DNA of 46,763 bases, from NCBI GenBank assembly GCA_017854855.1, contig JAFMGZ010000031.1, forward strand, positions 1 to 46,763. Direction: 5' to 3'. Under the pieces are notes generated by a model. That model did no database searches. It was not told the DNA's origin and was given only the letters and a program-made list of their open reading frames with translations. This document shows, piece after piece, positions 8,228 through 42,458 of this stretch; positions within the stretch are counted from its first letter, which is position 1, and the number at the start of each line of letters is the position of its first letter. The stretch is from Sulfitobacter sp. (lineage in GTDB: Bacteria > Pseudomonadota > Alphaproteobacteria > Rhodobacterales > Rhodobacteraceae). A program made the translations under genes and the position numbers.

Positions 8228-9115
8228 TCATGCTGCCTGTTGCTGCTGGTTCTGCCGGGCCTGCAGAAAGTTGACGAATGTCTCACTCAGGTCACCGCGG
8301 GCCATGGCAAAAGCGGCCGTAGCCTGCACAAAGCCCTGAACAGACCCGCAATCAAAGCGTTCACCGTCAAAGTTGAAGCCAGTGACGCCGACGGTCTCAA
8401 CGTCCTGATTGATCGCATCGGTAAGCTGCAATTCGCCCCCCGCGCCGGGGCCAAGCGCATCTAGGCGGGCAAAGATCGACGGCTGCAGGATATATCGTCC
8501 CACGACAGCCTGGGTTGAGGGGGCCGCCTCTGGTCTGGGCTTTTCGACCAATCCACGGGCCCAGGAAATTCGGCCATGTGTTTCACGCACGTCCAGCACC
8601 CCGTAAGATGACACAGATGCTTGGGGCACCTCCATCGTAGCCAGCATATGACCGCCAACTTCTGAATGTGCTTGCACCATCTGGGCCAGCGCCCCTGTGG
8701 GGTGCATGATCACATCATCAGGCAGCAACACGGCAAAGGGCGCGTCGCCGATCAGGTTTTTCGCCTGCCGCACCGCATGACCAAGCCCAAGCGGGCGGGC
8801 CTGACGCAGAATGGTCAGTGCACCTTCGGGCATCCGTGAGGGGGCCAATGCGTCCAGGGCGGCAGTCTTGCCCTTGGCCTTGAGTTGCATTTCCAGTGCG
8901 GCGGCGGTGTCAAAATAATCCTCCAGCGCGCCCTTGCCTGCGGCAGAAACAAAGATGAACTCTTCGATCCCGGCTTTGCGCGCCTCGTCGACGGCGTATT
9001 GGATCAAGGGGCGATCCACCAAGGGCAGCATTTCCTTGGGGATCGATTTGGTTGCCGGAAGAAAACGGGTACCCATGCCTGCGACGGGAAAGACGGCTTT
9101 GCGAATATGTGTCAT
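8228..9115 (-). CDS. galU: UTP--glucose-1-phosphate uridylyltransferase
   Basis: This 295-residue protein makes UDP-glucose from UTP and glucose-1-phosphate in the cytoplasm. The family signature is clear: AVFPVAGMGTRFLPATKS with the catalytic KSIPKEMLPLVDRP at about 22-36, IEEFIFVSAAGKGALEDYF, FAVLLPDDV and VEKPRPEAAPS. Length matches bacterial GalU (about 290-300). It sits between the signalling pair and the WecG-WbaP fusion gene, so it probably supplies the nucleotide sugar for this exopolysaccharide. A gap of about 60 bases separates it from the upstream gene, so it may be transcribed with that gene. Confidence 0.93.
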   Translation of the reverse strand: MTHIRKAVFPVAGMGTRFLPATKSIPKEMLPLVDRPLIQYAVDEARKAGIEEFIFVSAAGKGALEDYFDTAAALEMQLKAKGKTAALDALAPSRMPEGALTILRQARPLGLGHAVRQAKNLIGDAPFAVLLPDDVIMHPTGALAQMVQAHSEVGGHMLATMEVPQASVSSYGVLDVRETHGRISWARGLVEKPRPEAAPSTQAVVGRYILQPSIFARLDALGPGAGGELQLTDAINQDVETVGVTGFNFDGERFDCGSVQGFVQATAAFAMARGDLSETFVNFLQARQNQQQQAA

Positions 9116-31548: not shown

Positions 31549-32709
31549 ATGCGTATCATTACATTAGCAGCGGCAGTTTGTCTGGCGTCGGGGCCACTGA
31601 TGGCTCAGGAGGTCGACCTGCCCAGTCAATTGACATGGACAGCCTACGGAACCGGCTCCGCGGGCTACAACCAATCAGTCGCAATCGGCGCGGCCCTGCA
31701 AGAGGCCAACGGGGTCAACCTGCGGGTTCTGCCCGGCAAGAACGACATCGCCCGTACAGAGCCACTGCGCCAGGGCAAGGTGCAGTTTTCGGCCAATGGT
31801 GTCGGCGGGTCATTCATGGCCCAGGAAGGCGTGTTCCAGTTTGGCGCTGAAAACTGGGGCCCACAGCCGGTGCGCGTTCTGGCTGCCAACAATGGCGGTG
31901 CCGTCGGACTATCCCTCGCCGTGGCCGCAGAGGCCTGTGAAAAGGCGGGCAAGCCCGGCTGCGAAGGCTTTACCTATGCCGATCTCAAAGGCATGCGTGT
32001 GGCCTGGGTCAAAGGCGCACCTGCGCTTAACGTGAACAACGAGGCCTATCTGGCCTATGGCGGGCTGACCTGGGATGATGTTGAACGGGTTGAATTTGGC
32101 GGCTTTGGCGACAGCTGGGCCGGCATGATCGACGGCAGCGTGGACGCGGCCTTTGCTTCGACCAACTCTGGCCGTGCCTATGAGGCAGCATCAGGCCCGC
32201 GCGGCGTGTACTGGCCGCCGGTAGATGCGAACGATGCCGAGGGTCTCAAGCGGATGCAGGCGATTGCCCCCTTCTTTTCGCCGATGACAGCCACCGTGGG
32301 TGCGACCATCGACGGGACCGACGGGACGCCGACGGCAGGCTATGCCTATCCGGTTCTGATGACCTATGCCGTGCAGGACGAAGAGCTGACCTACAACATG
32401 ACCAAGGCGATGGATGTGTATTTCGACAGCTACAAAGGCAATGCACCGGGCATCAACGGCTGGGCACGCGACAAGCAGAACTTCCAATGGGTGGCCCCCT
32501 ATCACGAGGGCGCAATCCGCTATTACAAGGAAGTCGGTGTTTGGACCGATGCGGCACAGGCGCATAACGATAATCTGATCGCGCGTCAGGCAGCCCTGAT
32601 GGCCGCATGGGAAGAGCTCAAGGCTGAAGCCCCTGACAACTGGGAAGCAGCATGGGACGCCAAACGCCGCGAAGCGCTTTCGGCGGGCGGTTTTGCCGTC
32701 GTTTTCTAA
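31549..32709 (+). CDS. TAXI-family TRAP transporter solute-binding protein
   Basis: This is a 386-residue periplasmic binding protein. A signal peptide ends near residue 19-20 (MRIITLAAAVCLASGPLMAQ). The mature start SQLTWTAYGTGSAGYNQSVA with GAALQEANGVNLRVLPGKND is the hallmark of TAXI (TRAP-associated extracytoplasmic immunogenic) proteins, and GKVQFSANGVGGSFMAQEG and YADLKGMRVAWVKGAPALN follow. It would capture a small organic anion and hand it to the fused permease encoded 146 bases downstream. The gap between the two contains a hairpin and a tandem repeat, which may make the binding protein more abundant than the permease. Confidence 0.92.
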   Translation: MRIITLAAAVCLASGPLMAQEVDLPSQLTWTAYGTGSAGYNQSVAIGAALQEANGVNLRVLPGKNDIARTEPLRQGKVQFSANGVGGSFMAQEGVFQFGAENWGPQPVRVLAANNGGAVGLSLAVAAEACEKAGKPGCEGFTYADLKGMRVAWVKGAPALNVNNEAYLAYGGLTWDDVERVEFGGFGDSWAGMIDGSVDAAFASTNSGRAYEAASGPRGVYWPPVDANDAEGLKRMQAIAPFFSPMTATVGATIDGTDGTPTAGYAYPVLMTYAVQDEELTYNMTKAMDVYFDSYKGNAPGINGWARDKQNFQWVAPYHEGAIRYYKEVGVWTDAAQAHNDNLIARQAALMAAWEELKAEAPDNWEAAWDAKRREALSAGGFAVVF

Positions 32710-32855: not shown

Positions 32856-34850
32856 ATGACAGAGCAAGACGCCCCCAAGGACCGTGGCAGTTCAGCCATT
32901 GAAGCCGAGCGTATCGTGGAGCGGCTGACCTTTTCCGGCCCGGCGCGCTGGATGATCATTCTGTTCACCCTGGCTGCCATCGGCGTGGCCATCAACCAAT
33001 TGTTTAATCTGCGGCTGGGTGGCTATTCTTTGCTTGAGGGGATGTATTTGTATGTTCTGGCGGGGCTTTTCCTCAGCCTGACCTTCATTACCTTCCGCGC
33101 CTGGGGGCCGCCTTCGTCTCATGTGCCATGGTATGACTGGGTTTTGGCCGCAGCGACCATGGGCATCGCGGGCTTTTTCGTGGCCACAGCTGGCGCCAGT
33201 CTTGATGGCGGCTGGGAATATGCGGCACCCGACATGGCCGTCTGGGCCTCCATCGCGTTTTACCTGCTGATCCTTGAGGGTACGCGCCGCGCAGGCGGGC
33301 TGGTCCTGTTCGGCATCGTTTTGGTGTTTTCGCTCTATCCTACTTTTGCCGAACATGTCCCTGATCCGCTGAACGGTTTTACCCAGCCTTTCCGCGATGT
33401 GATCCCCTATTTCATGATTTCCTCCGAGGCGTCGTTCGGCATTCCGATGCGGGCTTTTGGCAATCTGGTGATCGGTTTCATCCTGTTTGGTGCTGTGTTG
33501 CAGTTCACCGGCGGGGGCAAATTCTTTAACAACCTCGCCATGGCGCTGGTCGGCGGCTACCGGGGGGGTGCGGCCAAAGTGTCAATCTTTGCCTCGGGCT
33601 TCATGGGCTCGATGTCAGGCTCTGTCATCTCGAACGTGCTGACCACCGGTGCCGTGTCGATCCCGGCGATGAAAAAGACGGGCTTCTCTGCGCGATATGC
33701 CGCCGCAACCGAAGCCTGCGCTTCCACCGGTGGGGTGCTGATGCCGCCAATCATGGGGGCCACTGCCTTTGTCATCGCCTCATGGCTCAGCCGCCCCTAT
33801 GTCGAGATCATGATGGCGGCGGCCATTCCGTCGCTGCTGTACTTTTTCGGGCTCTTCGTTCAGGTCGATGCCTATTCCGCACGGCGCGGCCTCAAGGGGC
33901 TGGCCCGCGCGGACCGTCCCCGCGTGATGAAGACACTGCGCGAAGGCTGGCTTTATATCGCTGTCTTTGCGCTGTTGATCTTCCTTATGGTGGCTTTCCG
34001 CTGGGAAAAGACGGCACCTTTTTATGCGGTCACCTTGCTGCTGCTGGTCAACCAGTTCAACAAGAACGACCGCGTGTCGTTTGAGGGGTTTCTCAATATC
34101 ATCGTCTCGGTGGGGCGCACATTGTCTGAACTGGTCGCTGTGCTGCTGGGCATCGGCATGATCGTGGGGGCGTTTCAGGCAACTGGACTGACCGGACCGC
34201 TGGCCAATGAGCTGGTGCATATGGCGGGGAATTCCATGCCGATGCTGCTGATCATGGGGGCGGTCACGTCCTTTATCTTTGGCATGGGGATGACGGTCAC
34301 GGCCTGCTACATCTTTCTGGCCGTCGTTCTGGCCCCGGCGCTGGTACAGGCGGGGCTGAATGAACTGGCTGTGCATCTTTTCATTCTCTACTGGGGCATG
34401 GTCAGCTTTATCACCCCACCCGTTGCGCTGGGTGCTTTTGCTGCGGCTTCGATGGCGGGGGCCAATGCCTTCAAGACCGGTTTTGAGGCGATGAAGCTGG
34501 GCGGCGTGATCTATGTCATCCCGTTCTTTTTCGTGCTGAACCCCGCGCTGATCGGACAAGGCCCACCGATGGAAGTCTTGGTCGTGCTGGTCTGTGCCCT
34601 GATCGGTGTCTGGTTCATTTCCGCCGCCCTGCAAGGCTTCGTCAGCTTCGTAGGGCCGCTGAATTCAACCGGCATCAGTGCTATGATGCGCCTGCTGCTG
34701 TTTCTTGCGGGCCTGATGGTTGCAGCCCCCGTTGGCGGAATTGCCGGATTGAGCCATTTTGCGTTGACCCTGTTTGGCATCGCCATCGCAATGCCACCTC
34801 TTGTCGTTGCATGGCGGGCAGGGCAGGAACCCGAAACGGCAACAACCTAG
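32856..34850 (+). CDS. TRAP transporter fused permease (4TM + 12TM)
   Basis: This is a 664-residue integral membrane protein joining the small (DctQ-like) and large (DctM-like) TRAP permease subunits, the usual partner of TAXI binding proteins. DctM-type motifs are visible: VGGYRGGAAKVSIFASGFMG, SGSVISNVLTTGAVSIPAMK, EACASTGGVLMPPIMGATAF, GMGMTVTACYIFLAVVLAP and WGMVSFITPPVALGAFAAAS. It imports a solute using an ion gradient. The ATG at 32856 is the only sensible start (an ATG five bases earlier stops at once); its ribosome site is weak. A strong hairpin follows at 34895-34927. Confidence 0.92.
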   Translation: MTEQDAPKDRGSSAIEAERIVERLTFSGPARWMIILFTLAAIGVAINQLFNLRLGGYSLLEGMYLYVLAGLFLSLTFITFRAWGPPSSHVPWYDWVLAAATMGIAGFFVATAGASLDGGWEYAAPDMAVWASIAFYLLILEGTRRAGGLVLFGIVLVFSLYPTFAEHVPDPLNGFTQPFRDVIPYFMISSEASFGIPMRAFGNLVIGFILFGAVLQFTGGGKFFNNLAMALVGGYRGGAAKVSIFASGFMGSMSGSVISNVLTTGAVSIPAMKKTGFSARYAAATEACASTGGVLMPPIMGATAFVIASWLSRPYVEIMMAAAIPSLLYFFGLFVQVDAYSARRGLKGLARADRPRVMKTLREGWLYIAVFALLIFLMVAFRWEKTAPFYAVTLLLLVNQFNKNDRVSFEGFLNIIVSVGRTLSELVAVLLGIGMIVGAFQATGLTGPLANELVHMAGNSMPMLLIMGAVTSFIFGMGMTVTACYIFLAVVLAPALVQAGLNELAVHLFILYWGMVSFITPPVALGAFAAASMAGANAFKTGFEAMKLGGVIYVIPFFFVLNPALIGQGPPMEVLVVLVCALIGVWFISAALQGFVSFVGPLNSTGISAMMRLLLFLAGLMVAAPVGGIAGLSHFALTLFGIAIAMPPLVVAWRAGQEPETATT

Positions 34851-34981: not shown

Positions 34982-36373
34982 ATGCCCCCAAGCCTGAGAG
35001 ACCTGCCGCAGATCCAGTCGCTGTTGGACCAGCCAAATGTGGCACAGGTCGCGGCGCGCTATTCGCATGGCGAAACCGTGGCCGCATTGCGCGACATCAC
35101 GGGGCAGTTGCGTTCTGCTTTGCTGTCCGGCAGGGACTGCGAGCTGCCCGATTTCGCGGGCAACCTTTTTGCCGACACCGTCGTTGCCGCCATTGAGGCC
35201 ATGCGCACATCCTCGCTCAGGCCCGTGGTCAATGCCACGGGCATCATCATTCACACCAATCTGGGCCGCGCGCGCCTTGCCCCTTCTGCCCTCAGCGCGA
35301 TGCAGGCCGTGGGGGCGGCACCCACCAATCTGGAACTGAACCTCGACACGGGCAAACGCGGATCGCGCCATGACCATGTCGAGGCGCTGATCTGCGACCT
35401 GACCGGTGCCGAGGCGGCGGTGGTCGTCAATAATTGCGCGGCCGCCGTTCTGCTGAGCCTGATGGCCACTGCGGGCGGGCGCAGCGTTGTAGCCTCGCGC
35501 GGCGAGTTGATTGAGATCGGCGGCTCGTTTCGCCTGCCTGACGTAATCGCGCAAAGTGGTGCAACCCTGCGCGAGGTCGGCACGACCAACAAGACAAGGG
35601 TCAGTGATTATGCGGATGCCATTGATGCCGATACGGCGGTTTTGCTGAAAAGCCACACCAGCAACTTCAAGATTGTCGGGTTCACGGCCGCACCCGCGCG
35701 TGGTGATCTTGCGCAGCTCGCGGCAGAGCGCGAGGTGATCTTGATCGAGGACCTTGGCAGTGGGGTTTTGATTGACCTGTCGGCTTTCGGGTTGACCGAT
35801 GAACCGGTGGTCGCGGATATTCTGAAGGCTGGCGTCGATCTTGTGATGTTCTCTGGCGACAAGCTGCTTGGCGGGCCGCAGGCCGGGATCATCGCGGGCC
35901 GACGCGACATCATCGCCAGTCTGAAAGCGCATCCTTTGATGCGTGCGGTGCGCATCGACAAACTGTCGCTTGCCGCTTTGGACGCCACGCTGCGGCTCTA
36001 CCGCGCACCATTCGACCCTCTGAAAGAGGTCCCCGTGCTGGCCGCGTTGTCCCAACCGCTGGCGCGTGTCAAAGAGCGCGGCCATGCCTTGGCGGATGAC
36101 CTGCGCCAATTGGGGATCGCGGACGTGGCCGTGCAGCAAACTGCGGCCTTTGTCGGCGGTGGTACGCTGCCCGAACAGGACATCCCCAGCTTTGCGGTTT
36201 GCGTGGCACTTCCTGGGCTTTCTGCGCATCAGTTGATGGCCGCCCTCAGGCAGGGTGATACGCCCGTGATCGGCCGGATTGAACGCGGGGAGGTTCTGCT
36301 GGACATGCGCAGCGTGAGCGACGCTGAATTGCCCGCCATCATCCGCACGTTCAAACATATTGCAAATCGATGA
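34982..36373 (+). CDS. selA: L-seryl-tRNA(Sec) selenium transferase
   Basis: This is a 463-residue PLP enzyme that converts Ser-tRNA(Sec) to Sec-tRNA(Sec) using selenophosphate. Family segments are [20 protein letters not shown] (80-99), [56 protein letters not shown], and the PLP-lysine Lys294 in [16 protein letters not shown]. Length agrees with bacterial SelA (about 460). The stop overlaps the selB start (ATGA). selA, selB and tRNA-Sec are contiguous, so the cell can make selenocysteinyl-tRNA provided selD, which is not in the window, lies elsewhere. Confidence 0.96.
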
Positions 36374-38280
36374 CGACCTGCTGCACGGTTGTGATCGGCC
36401 ATGTGGACCACGGGAAAACCGCGCTTGTGCGCAGGCTAACCGGGATCGACACCGATCGTCTGCCAGAGGAAAAGGCGCGGGGTTTGTCGATCAAGCCCGG
36501 CTTTGCCCATCACGGCTATGCTGGCGGGATGATGGATTTTGTGGATGCACCGGGCCACGAGGATTTCATTCAGGCGATGATCTGCGGGGCGTCGGGTGCC
36601 CGTGCGGCACTGGTGGTGATCTCGGCGGTTGAAGGGATCGGTGCGCAGACGCTCGAACATCTGACCATCGCCGGCGCGCTGGGGATCACACGCGGCGTGA
36701 TTGCGGTCAGCAAGTCCGACGTGCTGCCCCCCTCTGACACGGACGCGCGGCTGTTGGAGATACGTCAAGCGCTGGGGCAAACGACGCTCGCTGATGCAAA
36801 GCTTGTCTTGTGTTCGGCTCTGACCGGGGACGGGATCGCGCAGTTGCACCTAGCCCTTGAGGCGCTGTTGGCCGATGCCCCTGACTGTGCCGCACCATCG
36901 CACAGCTTTCTGCCGGTTGACCGGGTGTTCACGATGCCCGGGCGCGGCACGATCGTCACGGGAACGCTGCTTGGCGGTGATCTGCAAACCGGTGATGCGG
37001 CGCGTATGCACCCCGGCGGGCACAGGGTCACCATCCGTGGATTGCACAGCCGTGGGATCGCGCGGGATGTGATCCACGCGGGCGAACGCGTCGCGGCAAA
37101 CCTGCGCGGGCTTGGCGTGCAGGATGTTTCGCGCGGCGCTGTGTTGTGCCTCGGGCACGAAACAATTGCCTCAACCATCATGGATATTCGGCTTGAGACG
37201 CTGGCATTGGCCACAAAACCCCTCAAGCATATGGACCGTGTCCGTGTCATGTTCGGCACCACCAGCGAGGTTGCACAGCTTCGGCTGTTTGGTGCCGGGC
37301 GGCTGAACCGGGCGCAGGCCGGTTTTGCGCAGCTGCGCTTCCAACGACCCGTCACAGGCTTTGCGGGGCAGCGCGCGATCATCCGGCATCTGTCGCCCGC
37401 CCAAACCATCGCGGGCGCGGTGCTGCTTGACCCGCAAGCCGGGACAACCGGATCGGGTGACAAAAGCCGTCTGGCTGTCTTGGAGGCGGCCCACAGCGGC
37501 GATGCCGCGGCCATCGCCAGGGCCCTGTGTGCTGCGCAGGGCGGGGCGGCAAGCCTGTCTGATATTGCCCGTTTGTCGCGCATGACGGTTGCGGGCGCGG
37601 GCCAAACGCTTGGCGCGGAATTTTGCGAGATTGGCGGGGGGCGCGTTGCCCCGGTGGAGGATATCGAAACCTGCAAGGCGGCTGTGCTTGCGGCAGTTGC
37701 GGGTTATCACGCCAGATATCCGATCCGTATCGCGGCAGGGCATCACCTTGTTGAAAGGGCAGGGACGGCTGCCGCCTTGGTGCCGCATGTCCTGACCTTA
37801 TTGATCGCCAGCGGGGAGCTGCGCGAACATCAGATGGGCCTCGCCGCTCGCGACCATGACCCATTGGCAAACCTCAGCGAGGATCAGCGCCATCGACTGA
37901 TGCAGATCGAAAGTCGCTACCGCAAGGCAGGGCTTGCGCCACTGGACCCGGAACCCATCGGCCCAGACCCGCTGGACCAAGATCTGACAGCGCTGTTGCT
38001 GGACAGCGACACCTTGGTGGTGCTGCAAAATGTCTCTTTGAAACAAACCATTACCCTTCACGCCGAAACGCTTGTCGCTGCCGCCATGACCCTTGGGCGC
38101 GCCTTTCCCGCCCCGGCCTATTTCACGACCGGAGAGGCCCGCGTGGCCCTGTCCACCAGCCGCAAGGTCATCGTGCCGATACTTGAATATTTCGACGCCC
38201 GCGGCCTCACGCAACGTTCAGGTGACATGCGCCAGATGAAAGAGGCGAATTCGATTTCACCGCCTGCGGCGACTTGCTAG
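36370..38280 (+). CDS. selB: Selenocysteine-specific elongation factor
   Basis: This is a 636-residue GTPase that delivers Sec-tRNA(Sec) to the ribosome at UGA codons marked by a SECIS hairpin. The G1 motif GHVDHGKT (10-17), G3 DAPGHED (59-65) and G4 SKSD (114-117) are intact. EF-Tu-like domains II and III follow ([20 protein letters not shown]). The C-terminal winged-helix repeats that bind SECIS RNA occupy the last 250 residues, ending near [19 protein letters not shown]. Length is normal for SelB. It overlaps selA by 4 bases and ends 11 bases before the tRNA-Sec gene. Confidence 0.96.
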
Positions 38281-38291
38281 GCTACCCATAC

Positions 38292-38386
38292 GGAGGTGAC
38301 TGGAGTCTGGTGGCTTCCCTGGTCTTCAAAACCATGGACGCGTCCTCAGGGCGTGTGGTGGGTTCGATTCCCATCCACCTCCGCCA
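38292..38386 (+). tRNA. selC: tRNA-Sec (anticodon TCA)
   Basis: This is a 95-base tRNA gene. The acceptor arm GGAGGTG (38292-38298) pairs with CACCTCC (38376-38382), followed by the discriminator G and an encoded CCA (38384-38386). An eighth acceptor pair would be A-C, unlike the usual perfect eight. The anticodon loop CT-TCA-AA has TCA at 38326-38328, reading UGA. The T arm is GTGGG-TTCGATT-CCCAT, and a long variable arm lies around 38338-38356. The long extra arm, UCA anticodon and position after selB identify it as selenocysteine tRNA. Confidence 0.95.
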
Positions 38387-38451
38387 TCTATGCCAAGGTG
38401 GACTTTGCTCAGTTCCGGCAGCAGAATGATCTTTCATCCGGGAGGACAGAA

Positions 38452-40020
38452 ATGAGCAACCAACAACCAGCATTTTCTCTTAACGATCTGGCCGGAGATG
38501 CGCATCATTTCCCCCGGCAAGGGCCAAGCCTGATTTGCTTTGTCAAAGAAGACTGCGAGACCTGCAACACCGCAGCCCCCGTGCTGGATGCCCTGCACAA
38601 GGCATATGGTGCACAGGTTGATGTGCTGTTGATCGCCCAATCCGGCCAGAACAACGCCACCTTTGCCGCGCGCCATGAATTGTCGATGCCCGTGCTGGAC
38701 GACAGCAGTTGCAAGACCGCTTTTGACTGGGACATCGAAAGCGTGCCATCGGTCTTTTGGCTGGATGCCGACGGGCACAGCCTGACGCGCTTTGAAGGCT
38801 TCGTCCGCACCGATTGGGAAGCATTGTCAGCCGAGATCAGCGCCCATTCGGGCCTGCCGGCCGCGCAGATCGACTGGGCCAGCCTGCCTGCATGGCGTCC
38901 CGGTTGCGGCTCCAGGCATCTGGACCCCGCGGTCTATGACAAGCTGCGCGCCGAAGCCGACGACAGCCCGATCCGCGCCCGCCGCATCGAGGTGGCCAGC
39001 AGCGATGACGTGGCCGAATTCATGTTTGATCAGGGTTTCTCTGACGGGCTGCCGCTGGTGCCGCCAACGCCCGAACGCGTCATGCGGATGCTGGCAGGCA
39101 CGCACCGTGACCCACAAGACGTGGTGGCCACAGTGCCCCCGAACATGGGCGTGGCGACGGTTGAAAAGATCGCCATCAACGCGGTGATGGCCGGATGCAA
39201 ACCTGAATATCTGCCGGTGGTCATCGCGGCCGTAGAGGCCGTCTGCACGGATGAGTTCAACATCCATGGTGTGACGGCCACGACCATGGGGGCCGCCCCG
39301 GTGATGGTGGTCAATGGACCGATCCGGCATGAAATCGGCATGAACATGAAACTGGGTGCCTTGGGGGCGGGCAACCGCGCCAATGCCACGATCGGCCGCG
39401 CCCTGCGGCTGGTGGTGCGCAATGTGGGCGGTGCCTCAACCGGTGGGGTGGAACGGTCAACACTCGGCAATCCGATGAAATTCACCATGTGTTTTGCCGA
39501 ATATGAGGAACGCTCGCCCTGGCCCGCGCTGCATGTTGAGCGCGGATTTGCGCCCGAGGATTCAGTGGTGACAGTCTTTGCCATGACCGGCGGGCCGGTC
39601 CATATCGTTGATCAGACCTCGCGCGCGCCAGATGATGTCGCGGGATCATTGGGACTTGGGCTTGAGGGGGTATTTTCGCCCAAGATGAGGAACCTGCCGG
39701 TCGATGCATTGCTGGTGGTCTGCCCCGAACATATCGACACATTGATGCGCGAAGGCGATTATTCCAAGGACCGGCTGCGCAACCGTATCCAACAGGTCAC
39801 GGCAGGCCCCGCATCACAATCGCGCGCGGATGAAACCCTCAGACCTGACAGTGCGGCATCCGACACTCCGGCGGCCTCCGTCTCAAAGTTTGCCAGCACC
39901 GACTATATTCATATCGTCGTGGCAGGGTCGGATGCCGGGAAATTCTCATCCGCGTTCCATGGCTGGGCCACAGGGGCTGTCGGGTCAGTATCTGTTTCCA
40001 AAAAGATTGACCTGGGCTAG
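38452..40020 (+). CDS. Thioredoxin-domain protein fused to a conserved domain of unknown function, partner of the UGSC selenoprotein
   Basis: This is a 522-residue cytoplasmic protein. Residues 1-135 form a thioredoxin-like domain: the active site is CETC (Cys35, Cys38) and the cis-proline is Pro99 in ESVPSVFW. A linker with Cys152 in GCGSRH leads to a domain of about 300 residues that I cannot assign to a characterised enzyme. Its conserved-looking blocks are DQGFSDGLPLVPPTPERVMR, VATVPPNMGVATVEKIAINA, AGCKPEYLPVVIAAVEAV, MGAAPVMVVNGPIRHEIG and ALGAGNRANATIGRALRL. GGGAGG precedes the start. The UGSC selenoprotein gene starts 24 bases downstream with its own strong ribosome site, so the two form one operon. 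A thioredoxin module beside a Sec redox motif suggests it delivers electrons to the selenoprotein, or acts in one complex with it. Confidence 0.8.
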   Translation: MSNQQPAFSLNDLAGDAHHFPRQGPSLICFVKEDCETCNTAAPVLDALHKAYGAQVDVLLIAQSGQNNATFAARHELSMPVLDDSSCKTAFDWDIESVPSVFWLDADGHSLTRFEGFVRTDWEALSAEISAHSGLPAAQIDWASLPAWRPGCGSRHLDPAVYDKLRAEADDSPIRARRIEVASSDDVAEFMFDQGFSDGLPLVPPTPERVMRMLAGTHRDPQDVVATVPPNMGVATVEKIAINAVMAGCKPEYLPVVIAAVEAVCTDEFNIHGVTATTMGAAPVMVVNGPIRHEIGMNMKLGALGAGNRANATIGRALRLVVRNVGGASTGGVERSTLGNPMKFTMCFAEYEERSPWPALHVERGFAPEDSVVTVFAMTGGPVHIVDQTSRAPDDVAGSLGLGLEGVFSPKMRNLPVDALLVVCPEHIDTLMREGDYSKDRLRNRIQQVTAGPASQSRADETLRPDSAASDTPAASVSKFASTDYIHIVVAGSDAGKFSSAFHGWATGAVGSVSVSKKIDLG

Positions 40021-40044
40021 GCTGAAGCGGAGAGGAGGAACGTT

Positions 40045-40566
40045 ATGACAATAATTCTCGACCCTACGGATGAACGCATGCCTGTCGAACGGCAGATCAC
40101 CACGCGCAGCGGCAGTCTGTCGGGTGTGATTGGCCTGCTGGACATCAGCAAGCCACGCGGCAATGTCATGCTGGATGAGCTGGAGCGCCTGCTATGCCAG
40201 AAGGCCCCCGGCGTCACGGTCAAGCGCTATAAGAAGCCGACATTCGCCAAACCTTGCCCTGATGCATTGCGCCGCGAAATTCGCGACGAATGCGATTTTC
40301 TGGTCGAAGCGCTGGCTGACTGAGGATCTTGTACGACGTGCAGTATGCACGACAATTTCTGGTTTGAAACCCAGGGGATCCCCGCAGTCGCAGTCGCGTC
40401 AAGCGAGTTTGGCCAAGCCGCCGAAGCGCAAAGAAAGGCGCTGGGTATGGAGGGCGCGCGTTATGTCCTGGTCCCGCATCCCATACAGGATGCGACCGAC
40501 CATGAGATGCGCGAAAAAGCCGCCCAGGCCTTGGAACAGATTTTCAGGGCCCTGACGGAAAATTAA
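40045..40566 (+). CDS. UGSC-motif selenoprotein (in-frame TGA read as selenocysteine, Sec93)
   Basis: The frame runs 92 codons to a TGA at 40321-40323 and continues in the same frame for 80 more residues to TAA, giving 173 residues with Sec93. The motif is U-G-S-C-T-T-C (93-99), then SMHDNFWFETQGIPAVAVAS. The downstream half is plainly coding (FGQAAEAQRKALGMEGARYV, VPHPIQDATDHEMREKAAQA). UGSC-motif proteins are a known predicted selenoprotein family of unknown function, first reported from marine metagenomes. UxxCxxC followed by a GIPAV segment also resembles the Sec centre of glycine-reductase component B. AGGAGG lies 6 bases before the start. The gene directly follows selA-selB-tRNA-Sec and the thioredoxin-fusion gene. 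A naive annotation would give a 92-residue protein plus a separate 73-residue ORF. Confidence 0.92.
40321..40355 (+). promoter_or_regulatory. Selenocysteine UGA and bacterial SECIS hairpin
   Basis: The Sec codon TGA occupies 40321-40323. Directly downstream, CGTGCA (40337-40342) pairs with TGCACG (40346-40351) around the loop GTA. A lower stem TTGT (40329-40332)/ACAA (40352-40355) is separated from it by a 4-base bulge ACGA. The apical loop starts 19 bases after the UGA and opens with G, within the range described for bacterial SECIS elements. SelB would bind here. Confidence 0.75.
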
Positions 40567-40573
40567 ACGCAGC

Positions 40574-40606
40574 ACGCGCAGCGACCCCTTTCAGGCCGCT
40601 GCGCGT
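40574..40606 (+). terminator. Terminator after the UGSC selenoprotein gene
   Basis: ACGCGCAGCG (40574-40583) and CGCTGCGCGT (40597-40606) form a perfect 10-bp stem with a 13-base loop, followed by TTCGCGTTT. It starts 8 bases after the selenoprotein stop and also lies just beyond the convergent SDR gene, so it can serve both strands. Confidence 0.7.
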
Positions 40607-40625
40607 TTCGCGTTTCAAACCTAGG

Positions 40626-41396
40626 CTACAGTTTCATCCCGCCCAGTTCGGCCACGCCCACAAAGCTGCGGTTCCACGTCGGGCTGATCAACACTTCGTT
40701 TATGCAGACATGCGGTGGTGCTTCGGCAATATAGCGGACCATTGCGCCCAGATCCTCGGCCTTGAGCATCTTGCCCAGGTCCTCGGGCGATGGCGGTTTG
40801 GGGCGGGATTGCATGATGGGGGTCGCCACCTCGCCGGGCATCAGGGCGGTGCAGCGGATACCATTGACGCCCTCGTCCTGGTTGATCGAATGGCTTAGCG
40901 CGACCACCGCATGTTTTGATGCGCTATAGGCAGGCCCCGTAAGCCGTGATGGATGCCGGCCCGCCCAAGAGGAGGTCAGGATCAATGTACCGCTGCCCTT
41001 GCGACGCATCGACGGCAGTACCGCCAGAATGCCGTTCATCACCCCGTTGAGGTTGACATCGACGACCCGGGCGAAATCCGCAGCCGTGATGGCCCCCACG
41101 GACCGGTTTGGCACGTTGATGCCCGCATTCGCCATGAAAATGTCGATGCCGCCCAACCGCGCGATGATATCATCCGCGATCGCCTGTGTGGCCTGAGCAT
41201 CCACAACATCCAACTGCGCGGCCTCTGCCTTGCCGCCCGCTGCGGTGATCACATCCACGACCCGTTCAATTTCCGCAAGCCGCCTGCCTGAGAGAACCAC
41301 ATGCGCGCCGCTCTGCGCCAGGGCAATGGCAGAGGCCTCTCCGATACCGCCCCCTGCACCGGTGACCCAGGCTACCTTTCCACTTAACGTTCCCAT
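40626..41396 (-). CDS. Short-chain dehydrogenase/reductase (SDR)
   Basis: This is a 256-residue classical SDR. The cofactor motif TGAGGGIG lies near 12-19, NAG in FMANAGINV, the catalytic serine in LILTSSWAG, and Tyr/Lys in AYSASKHA. The residues after the second beta strand (LSGRRLAEIE) include arginines that favour NADP(H). Start 41396 is chosen because GGAGGACGAT directly precedes it; a longer frame upstream has no support. It oxidises or reduces an alcohol/ketone pair of unknown identity. It is divergent from the SMP-30-like gene with a 147-base gap, a pairing common in sugar or lactone catabolism. Confidence 0.9.
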   Translation of the reverse strand: MGTLSGKVAWVTGAGGGIGEASAIALAQSGAHVVLSGRRLAEIERVVDVITAAGGKAEAAQLDVVDAQATQAIADDIIARLGGIDIFMANAGINVPNRSVGAITAADFARVVDVNLNGVMNGILAVLPSMRRKGSGTLILTSSWAGRHPSRLTGPAYSASKHAVVALSHSINQDEGVNGIRCTALMPGEVATPIMQSRPKPPSPEDLGKMLKAEDLGAMVRYIAEAPPHVCINEVLISPTWNRSFVGVAELGGMKL

Positions 41397-41543
41397 ATCG
41401 TCCTCCCAGACTGCATTATGCGCTCCTGCCAGAAGTTCACAGAAGCCACCGCTTGTCCATGAAATGCGCAGCGGATTTTTTAGGCGACGTCGCGGCGCGT
41501 TCATGTGACACTTGGCCAAAGCCACAATGGGGGGAGACCGGAT

Positions 41544-42458
41544 ATGAAGCTCACGAAGATATGCGACGGATTGGATTTTCCCGAAGGGCCAATCGCCATG
41601 GCAGATGGCTCTGTCATCCTCGTTGAGATCAGGCGCAAGACCTTGTCGCGGGTGCAGCCCGATGGACAGATAGACGTGATTGCAGAGCTGGGAGGCGGTC
41701 CCAACGGGGCGGCGGTAGGGCCTGATGGCATGATCTATGTCTGCAACAACGGCGGTTTCGTCTGGACCCAGGCCGACGGCATCACGCGGCCCATCGGCAC
41801 GCCCGAGGATTACATCAGCGGTTCAATTCAGCGGGTTGATCCCGACACCGGTGCCTTTGAAACGATCTATGACAGCTGTGACGGTCAGCCCCTGCGCGGC
41901 CCCAATGACATTGTCTTTGATGCGCAGGGGGGCTTTTATTTCACCGATCTGGGCAAATCGACCGCCGAATTCGTGCATCACGGTGCCTTTTATTATGCCA
42001 AGGCAGACGGCAGCCAGATCAGGCGCGTGCACGGCCCCATGATCACGCCCAACGGCATCGGCCTGTCCCCTGACGACAAGACCGTACATGTCGCTGAAAC
42101 ACGCACCGGACGCGTCTGGAGCTATGATCTGGTCGCTCCGGGCGAGATCGGGCCGCTGCCCTTCAACATGCCTGGAAGGCTGCTGGCGACGCTGCCGGAT
42201 TATCAGCTGCTCGACAGTCTCGCGGTTCAGGCGGATGGCCAGATATGCGTGGCAACCTTGATGCGCGGCGGGATCAGCGTGGTGCCGGTGGATGGCGGGC
42301 CGGTGAATTTCATCGAGGTGCCGGGCGACCCCTATATCACCAACATCTGTTTTGGCGGGGCGGATATGATGGACGCCTTCATCACCGCTTCGGGAACGGG
42401 ATGTCTGTATCATGCCCGCTGGCCAAACGCGGGCCACAGGTTGCACTTCAACCTCTAG
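41544..42458 (+). CDS. SMP-30/gluconolactonase/LRE family protein
   Basis: This is a 304-residue six-bladed beta-propeller of the SMP-30/gluconolactonase family. Typical motifs are CDGLDFPEGPIAMADGSVIL (metal-binding Glu), GGGPNGAAVGPDGMIYVCNN, PLRGPNDIVFDAQGGFYFTD, ITPNGIGLSPDDKTVHVAET and the late LLDSLAVQADGQI. Members hydrolyse sugar lactones or other cyclic esters using a divalent metal. The start at 41544 follows GGGGGGAG; an upstream in-frame ATG at 41505 lacks a site. Together with the divergent SDR it would fit a dehydrogenase-lactonase pair, with the SDR forming a lactone and this enzyme opening it (inference). Confidence 0.88.
   Translation: MKLTKICDGLDFPEGPIAMADGSVILVEIRRKTLSRVQPDGQIDVIAELGGGPNGAAVGPDGMIYVCNNGGFVWTQADGITRPIGTPEDYISGSIQRVDPDTGAFETIYDSCDGQPLRGPNDIVFDAQGGFYFTDLGKSTAEFVHHGAFYYAKADGSQIRRVHGPMITPNGIGLSPDDKTVHVAETRTGRVWSYDLVAPGEIGPLPFNMPGRLLATLPDYQLLDSLAVQADGQICVATLMRGGISVVPVDGGPVNFIEVPGDPYITNICFGGADMMDAFITASGTGCLYHARWPNAGHRLHFNL

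Follow-up and report, generated by a model that had tools for sequence, protein, structure and literature searches.

Organization of the selenocysteine locus

The window analysed here is a stretch of 46,763 nucleotides from a Sulfitobacter sp. contig (JAFMGZ010000031.1). Upstream of a UGSC-family gene containing an in-frame UGA, and all in its direction, lie genes for a TRAP binding protein and permease, selA, selB, a tRNA-Sec gene and a gene for a two-domain protein, hereafter called the partner. The features discussed below are the following:

31549..32709, + strand: TRAP substrate-binding protein, NMT1/TAXI-like (PF16868, 53.4 bits, cut-off 27; context only)
32856..34850, + strand: TRAP transporter fused permease, possible substrate importer (family match; context only)
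34982..36373, + strand: selA, L-seryl-tRNA(Sec) selenium transferase (TIGR00474, 563.4 bits, cut-off 267.9)
36370..38280, + strand: selB, Sec-specific elongation factor (TIGR00475, 260 bits, cut-off 242.25)
38292..38386, + strand: tRNA-Sec, anticodon UCA (Rfam, 73.2 bits)
38452..40020, + strand: partner, 522 residues, thioredoxin-like N-domain (PF00578) and a domain of ~390 residues; present at UGSC loci
40045..40566, + strand: predicted UGSC-family selenoprotein gene, 173 residues, Sec93 (NF041046 and PF24696 matches)
40321..40323, + strand: in-frame UGA predicted to be read as selenocysteine, the U of U-G-S-C (frame and homologue comparison)
40337..40351, + strand: putative SECIS-type hairpin, 6 bp, tri-loop, A-G-U apex (comparative pairing, AGU constraint)

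The first-pass annotation placed selA, selB and tRNA-Sec directly upstream of the UGSC gene. They are indeed upstream and in the same direction, but not directly so, since the 522-residue partner gene (38452-40020) lies between tRNA-Sec and the UGSC gene, ending 24 bases before the start of the latter.

A member of the UGSC family

The frame of the UGSC gene opens at an ATG at 40045, preceded by AGGAGG at 40033-40038, and passes through the TGA at 40321-40323 to a TAA at 40564-40566. As proposed in the first-pass annotation, the TGA shares one frame with both halves, giving 173 residues with Sec at position 93, and the U-G-S-C-T-T-C context is read in the translated frame, as part of A-D-U-G-S-C-T-T-C. 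Without recoding, the open reading frame stops at residue 92. The protein matches the model NF041046, 'UGSC family (seleno)protein', with 174.5 bits (cut-off 125; model positions 4-147 of 147) and PF24696 with 166.3 bits (cut-off 25; model positions 2-171 of 172, residues 4-171). Both curated cut-offs are thus passed across nearly the whole model, and the protein carries the [U/C]GSC motif of the family, in which the first residue is Sec or Cys. Its seven nearest named relatives all carry the label Sulfitobacter, with 80-83% identity.

The gene itself is therefore already covered by a known Pfam and NCBIfam family and, because these models exist, its description as hidden applies only to gene callers that do not use PF24696 or NF041046. 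The truncation predicted for automated annotation was encountered in the one annotated record of the UGA type examined, the Acidovorax sp. T1 conjugative IncP plasmid NZ_CP021650.1 (L041), in which the UGSC gene at 8640-8975 is annotated as a short hypothetical protein (8640-8930) ending exactly at the UGA. In this plasmid, IS1071 and IS91-like transposases are located some kilobases away from the UGSC gene.

The family was previously described in a survey of the GOS metagenomes, the available part of which reports a UGSC motif with UGA at the U, as in the window, and a table of 255 UGSC sequences, which makes the family one of the most frequent predicted selenoproteins in metagenomes from aquatic habitats (PMC2398784). 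UGSC-motif selenoproteins are also mentioned, in the portion of the study available, for Geodermatophilaceae, whose tRNA-Sec anticodon is CUA (PMC5330540).

Conservation of the UGA codon among homologues

Homologues were compared at 46 loci (L001-L036 and L039-L048, L001 being the window), 18 of them originating from genome contigs, 18 from genome searches (including L001) and 10 from plasmids. Because some of these loci come from one and the same place or are nearly identical in sequence (L004/L007, L011/L026, L013/L027, L008/L029, L017/L018 and L021/L023), their counts are not independent; the 46 loci were reduced to 42 distinct rows for profiles and the 34 UGA segments to 25 distinct ones for pair counts. 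L015, in which the partner frame ends early, was left out of set A2.

The codon at the place of Sec93 is TGA in 34 of the 46 loci and a cysteine codon in the other 12 (TGC in 8, TGT in 4), which bears out the suggestion in the first-pass annotation that Cys might replace Sec93 in homologues. A pattern scan with the UGSC protein of the window recovered 18 relatives, ranging from Sulfitobacter to Dehalococcoidia, Acidimicrobiales and a Desulfobacteraceae bin, all of them with TGA at the same codon (18/18); this pattern search detected no relative in viral contigs. Within the genus, the family is present in 31 of 58 sampled genomes, with exactly one TGA inside the match in each of the 31. Conservation continues past the UGA to the C-terminus in an alignment of 19 sequences, in which Pro113, Ala118, Phe122, Gly134, His145-Pro146, Gln148-Asp149, Glu154 and Ala159 are invariant. 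Homologues ending at residue 92 and a loss of conservation after the TGA, two signs that would speak against a selenoprotein, were looked for and not found.

The locus thus combines an in-frame UGA, coding conservation on both sides of it and Cys homologues. On these comparative grounds, the UGA is confidently predicted to specify selenocysteine and, by all comparative signs, positions 40045-40566 would encode one selenoprotein of the known UGSC family.

A Cys-type UGSC homologue from the window's family (genome G277; L004/L007/L097) contains an additional in-frame TGA about 30 codons past the motif, which could correspond to a second recoding event, a frameshift or decay.

A SECIS-type hairpin downstream of the UGA

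The arms of the hairpin at 40337-40342 and 40346-40351 (CGUGCA/UGCACG) enclose a loop at 40343-40345, located 19 bases from the UGA. The six base pairs and this distance agree with the first-pass annotation. The lower stem that it also proposed was rejected, as it falls outside the consensus fold of the 25 distinct UGA loci, which consists of the six upper pairs only. The support for the hairpin is comparative; by itself, the single-sequence fold is not significant (z -0.95; 36 of 200 shuffles fold equally well). Across the 25 distinct UGA loci, 99.3% of the 150 stem cells pair, with one GU and one unpaired cell, and compensatory changes occur at two base pairs of the stem, one switching from GC to AU in two loci and the other from CG to GC, likewise in two loci. 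Slid controls have 2 to 69% of their cells paired, and the shuffles used for stem pairing do not represent a probability.

Stem pairing was also considered as a discriminator between Sec and Cys genes and proved weak, the Cys homologues keeping 2-6 of the 6 pairs (all six in L046), with the help of protein conservation. The feature that discriminates the two types is the AGU at the apex, found in 34/34 UGA loci versus 0/12 Cys loci (the loci being mutually related). The apex serine codon is AGT in 25/25 distinct Sec genes, whereas elsewhere in those genes AGT accounts for 18 of 210 serine codons. This bias indicates selection on the RNA and points to the hairpin as a probable RNA signal, selected at that level.

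The fdhF-type SECIS element of Escherichia coli is a stem-loop located shortly after the UGA, with G-U in its apical loop, and both traits are present at the UGSC gene. A search of positions 36000-42000 with Rfam returned tRNA-Sec only and no SECIS family match. When a SECIS model built here (R1) was run on the window's own genome, the UGSC site alone was strong, the next best having an E-value of 0.3 (150 of 1170 candidates scored); the model leans on the UGSC sequence, so that one strong site is not proof of a single selenoprotein. Together with the two family models, whose cut-offs are far exceeded, these comparisons uphold the initial identification of a Sec cassette whose UGSC-family selenoprotein gene carries a SECIS-type hairpin.

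Co-occurrence with the selenocysteine machinery in the genus

SelA, SelB, tRNA-Sec and SelD are all present at the genome level. In the 58 genus genomes, drawn as a sample from a larger group of the genus, the best match to the SelB model scores at least 226.9 bits in 31 and at most 195.7 bits in 27, the latter being, in our reading, in the range of EF-Tu. The SelB-positive class rests on this score gap, because in the six-frame search the curated cut-off is exceeded in only 24 of the 58 genomes; the SelB of the window itself scores 240.6 bits in that search (cut-off 242.25) versus 260 bits as a whole protein. The 31 genomes that are SelB-positive by the score gap are exactly the 31 that encode UGSC (Fisher p 4e-17, the genomes being related).

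SelD is present in all 58 genomes, including the 27 without SelB, where it is likely kept for selenouridine in tRNA. The SelD copy that was scanned (L009, 8539-10821) is fused to a pyridine-nucleotide oxidoreductase, and relatives of this fusion adjoin the UGSC gene in L009, L013, L027 and L036. The arrangement in the window resembles that of the proteobacterial fdoGHI-selABC(D) clusters, in which, according to the available part of their description, the Sec machinery is likewise encoded beside the selenoprotein that needs it (PMC8124441). The selenoprotein of those clusters is formate dehydrogenase, whereas none of the formate dehydrogenase alpha matches listed for the genus genomes contains a stop. 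The simplest reading is that SelA, SelB and tRNA-Sec may be kept for UGSC in this genus.

A constant partner with a thioredoxin-like domain

The partner is encoded at all 46 UGSC loci. Of 398 genomes sampled from the phylum, five encode UGSC, and these five are also the ones that encode the partner. In Variovorax, UGSC and partner are fused in one protein of 545 residues. The available part of the GOS survey reported in 2008 a fusion of UGSC with a domain named 'Unknown_1' (PMC2398784), which we infer to be the partner described here.

The N-domain of the partner (residues ~1-125) matches PF00578 with 29.8 bits (cut-off 26), carries a CETC motif at residues 35-38 and is DsbE/ResA-like in the predicted model. 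The domain of ~390 residues gave no Pfam or NCBIfam match over cut-off in the window protein and ten homologues; the tenth of these, the Variovorax fusion, matches the UGSC models, with NF041046 below its cut-off. When the partner model (mean pLDDT 77.5) was used for a fold search, the 50 rows listed were matches to the thioredoxin part and gave no assignment for the main domain. Among 18 partners, Cys35, Cys152 and Cys249 are invariant, Cys347 is present in 17 and Cys38 in 16, the second Cys of the N-domain motif being replaced by Thr in two. An apparent similarity between UGSC and partner (scores 35.5 and 41.5) was rejected: the linker in the fused Variovorax protein had caused it, and trimming lowered the score to 14.4 (14.6 in another comparison).

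Two partner copies flank UGSC in two of the four haloarchaeal plasmids, in which a partner gene, a Cys-type UGSC gene and a second, paralogous partner gene follow one another in a row (L046 6917-9579 and L047 6885-9584). The genome G139, from the window's class, has two UGSC genes of the UGA type and, in addition, two PrdB-like matches that contain an internal TGA (C1:1283789, C1:4574135, C1:834660, corresponding to L063, and C1:2204974); at one of its UGSC loci, the partner gene occurs twice in tandem, with a TrxB-like gene as neighbour.

Possible redox supply and gene neighbourhood

The thioredoxin-like domain is fused to the partner at 32 of the 46 loci (in L024 only at an E-value of 7e-5). 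Thirteen distinct places have no fused domain: a thioredoxin-reductase-like gene is located nearby in five (L040, L042, L044, L045 and L095), those of L040 and L095 being only about 30% identical to TrxB, and no such gene was found within the stretch at the other eight. In Arthrobacter, trxA directly precedes the partner gene, in addition to a thioredoxin-reductase-like gene. Such a gene accompanies one of the 32 loci with a fused domain (L096), 13 of these 32 having short flanks.

Of the 28 other loci that were clustered, four (L008, L011, L013 and L047) contain a relative of the TRAP permease. Annotated plasmid homologues are surrounded by varying sets of genes for tricarboxylate or TRAP transporters, CoA transferases, acyl-CoA and aldehyde dehydrogenases and LysR regulators, and four Sulfitobacter copies have nearby a cluster encoding an acyl-CoA-synthetase-like protein and a TPP enzyme (scanned for L009). 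UGSC is thus found in the company of organic-acid catabolism, a context that does not name the substrate.

In two Acidimicrobiales loci (L021 596-2599 and L023 4373-6376), a 4Fe-4S protein is encoded upstream of the partner; that of L021, the one scanned, passes PF13486, the model for a reductive dehalogenase subunit (31.9 bits, cut-off 24.3). A phytanoyl-CoA-dioxygenase-like protein is also encoded upstream of the partner in both.

Probable relationship with the selenocysteine subunits PrdB and GrdB

The profile of the UGSC family aligns with 23 PrdB/GRDB rows (which contain repeats, L049-L053 recurring among L054-L062) over 114 columns in hhalign, with a probability of 86.8, an E-value of 4.3e-6 (for one comparison) and a score of 46.9, placing motif on motif and Sec on Sec. 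None of 200 column shuffles reached this score (maximum 30.5), although column shuffling breaks the periodicity of secondary structure and flatters the score; the reversed profile gave 19.0. The UGSC profile scores 40.5 against PrdB alone and 41.0 against GRDB-like proteins alone; with the four motif residues masked, the score is still 38.3. After trimming of the fusion tail, the score is 46.4; 39 other families from the neighbourhoods, which were not picked as flavodoxin-like and mostly have only 2 or 3 rows, do not exceed 21.7. Narrow profiles gave a weak result (probability 4, E 0.01).

In the alignment, 'VDGVLLTAG-UGTC-HRSAVLVQRAIEEAGIPTVIIA' of a PrdB protein (L066) faces 'CDFLVEALAD-UGSC-TTCSMHDNFWFETQGIPAVAVA' of UGSC, so that TAG-UGTC-H...GIPT of PrdB corresponds to LAD-UGSC-T...GIPA. 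PrdB (TIGR04483) and GrdB (PF07355, TIGR01917) share with UGSC a Sec or Cys in the corresponding alignment column, followed by a helix and then G-I-P; the motif U-G-[ST]-C is common to UGSC and PrdB, and the profile homology spans 85-114 columns. UGSC differs in being shorter and in having no single-sequence match to the models of the two families: the window's protein matches neither PF07355 at E-values up to 1 nor the GrdB and PrdB NCBIfam models at E-values up to 0.1. The link is therefore based on the profile-profile comparison. A weak hint comes from the motif region of the Variovorax homologue, matched by TIGR01917 at an E-value of 0.18, far below cut-off. This comparison argues for a common ancestry of the Sec domains, and UGSC is likely a distant and shortened homologue of the PrdB/GrdB Sec subunits.

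The similarity does not extend to the second subunit, since the partner profile shows none to three sequences of PrdA, the pyruvoyl subunit (score 18.4); the two proteins are not related in sequence, and the idea of a PrdA-like, pyruvoyl-type partner was rejected for the protein compared. Also unlike PrdB and GrdB, UGSC is found in haloarchaea and in genera that live aerobically. A further point of likeness is that thioredoxin is the reductant of glycine reductase.

Another group of PrdB/GrdB relatives was encountered in proteobacteria (L049-L053, L064 and L071), namely Cys-type PF07355 proteins of ~300-326 residues with CPVC or CPIC motifs; those of L051 and L053 lie beside a CaiB-type CoA transferase, as judged by eye.

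Predicted fold and alternative functions

A thioredoxin-like fold has been suggested for UGSC in the part of the GOS survey available (PMC2398784). The AlphaFold2 model obtained from the 19-sequence alignment, with Cys in place of Sec (mean pLDDT 90.7), shows instead five strands alternating with five helices, Sec93 being located just before the helix 94-109. Sequence search for relatives of solved structure gave one match for UGSC (E 1.9), and none was found for one PF07355 relative. In Foldseek comparisons with natural proteins, the model reaches TM-scores of ~0.4-0.5 with E-values of ~1e-4; the best rows include the flavin reductase MsuE, flavodiiron proteins, azoreductase, WrbA and NrdI, and no thioredoxin is present in the best 50 of 1850 (E up to 10). 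Because the model alternates strand and helix and the rows listed lack thioredoxin, the published fold is not supported; an alternating alpha/beta fold is predicted.

These results bear on another view of UGSC, as a thiol-disulfide oxidoreductase of the thioredoxin-like type that uses UxxC as its redox motif, has the partner as a client or helper and acts on no small-molecule substrate. UxxC does look like redox motifs, and a thioredoxin-like domain or, in some loci, a thioredoxin reductase is a neighbour. However, five strands each separated by a helix are not in the thioredoxin order, several of the best Foldseek rows are flavodoxin-like proteins, the UGSC profile scores just 13.9 against the partner's own thioredoxin-like domain, and the genes around the annotated plasmid homologues mostly encode transporters, CoA transferases and dehydrogenases. 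We consider this view unlikely.

A role in detoxification or peroxide scavenging under oxidative stress, rather than in catabolism, would agree with the many peroxiredoxin- or thioredoxin-like selenoproteins of aquatic bacteria listed in the accessible part of the survey (PMC2398784). It seems more doubtful still, since UGSC has no peroxiredoxin, AhpC or GPx family match in Pfam or NCBIfam, and catabolism agrees better with the constant partner and with the neighbouring transporter and CoA-transferase genes. Finally, that the UGA is a plain stop (a sequencing error, a pseudogene or an overlapping short gene) would accommodate the insignificant single-sequence hairpin and an end at residue 92, but is extremely improbable in view of its retention in 34 of 46 loci with Cys in all others, the protein conservation beyond it, the AGU constraint and the nearby tRNA-Sec, selA and selB.

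A candidate two-component selenoenzyme

Computation supports the family assignment, the retention of the UGA, the RNA element, the constancy of the partner, the co-occurrence with SelB and the homology with PrdB/GrdB. From these, we propose, with a probability of roughly 0.6, that UGSC and its partner form a two-component, thioredoxin-fed reductase of an imported organic acid, related to PrdB/GrdB and carried with its own Sec cassette; the physical complex, the electron route and the chemistry are inferred.

In the proposed enzyme, UGSC would be the small, Sec-bearing catalytic subunit, the other subunit being encoded just upstream. An organic acid, perhaps imported by the neighbouring TRAP transporter, would bind at the interface and be held by the partner. 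Positioned where a helix begins, the selenolate of Sec93 would attack the substrate as nucleophile or reductant, the bond being cleaved reductively, and Cys96 could act as the resolving thiol, forming a Se-S bond with the selenium. This bond would be re-reduced by the thioredoxin-like N-domain of the partner or, in relatives without the fused domain, by thioredoxin and thioredoxin reductase. The selA, selB and tRNA-Sec genes would be carried alongside to make UGSC, and SelD, present in the genus in any case, would serve for this as well.

In proline and glycine reductases, as described in the available part of PMC10838667, the Sec subunit is joined by another subunit, which can carry a cysteine-derived pyruvoyl group. 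Because the partner is unlike PrdA, the chemistry of proline reductase is not simply transferable, and a non-pyruvoyl arrangement appears to be the better guess. A parallel is provided by FarB/FarE, the proposed fluoroacetate reductase of Cloacibacillus, in which a GrdB-type selenoprotein is proposed to act with a partner lacking the pyruvoyl-forming cysteines and to cleave another C-X bond; FarB is a GrdB homologue from an anaerobe, its function was inferred from transcripts and genome comparison, and it is set beside UGSC by description (PMC10838667, in the part available).

As stated in the first-pass annotation, no reaction is assigned to the UGSC family in the portions of the literature covered. 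The link with PrdB/GrdB is absent from the available parts of PMC2398784, PMC13188914, PMC9312934, PMC7539508, PMC9402790, PMC5029168 and PMC5330540 and, as far as this literature was searched, this link, the constant partner and the co-occurrence with SelB are new to print.

The PrdB/GrdB link, the partner and the thioredoxin supply turn a general 'redox' guess into a testable enzyme, and in the relatives of Sulfitobacter, UGSC may be the reason for the retention of SelB. We further put forward, tentatively and at slightly less than even odds, that UGSC and its partner represent an unrecognised class of reductases, dependent on selenium and fed by thioredoxin, in which a PrdB/GrdB-type Sec domain is combined with a new, non-pyruvoyl substrate subunit for aerobic carbon catabolism in marine and soil bacteria and in haloarchaea. 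If true, this would bring Stickland-type selenium chemistry to aerobes, and the activity would be among the commoner selenoprotein functions of aquatic microbes.
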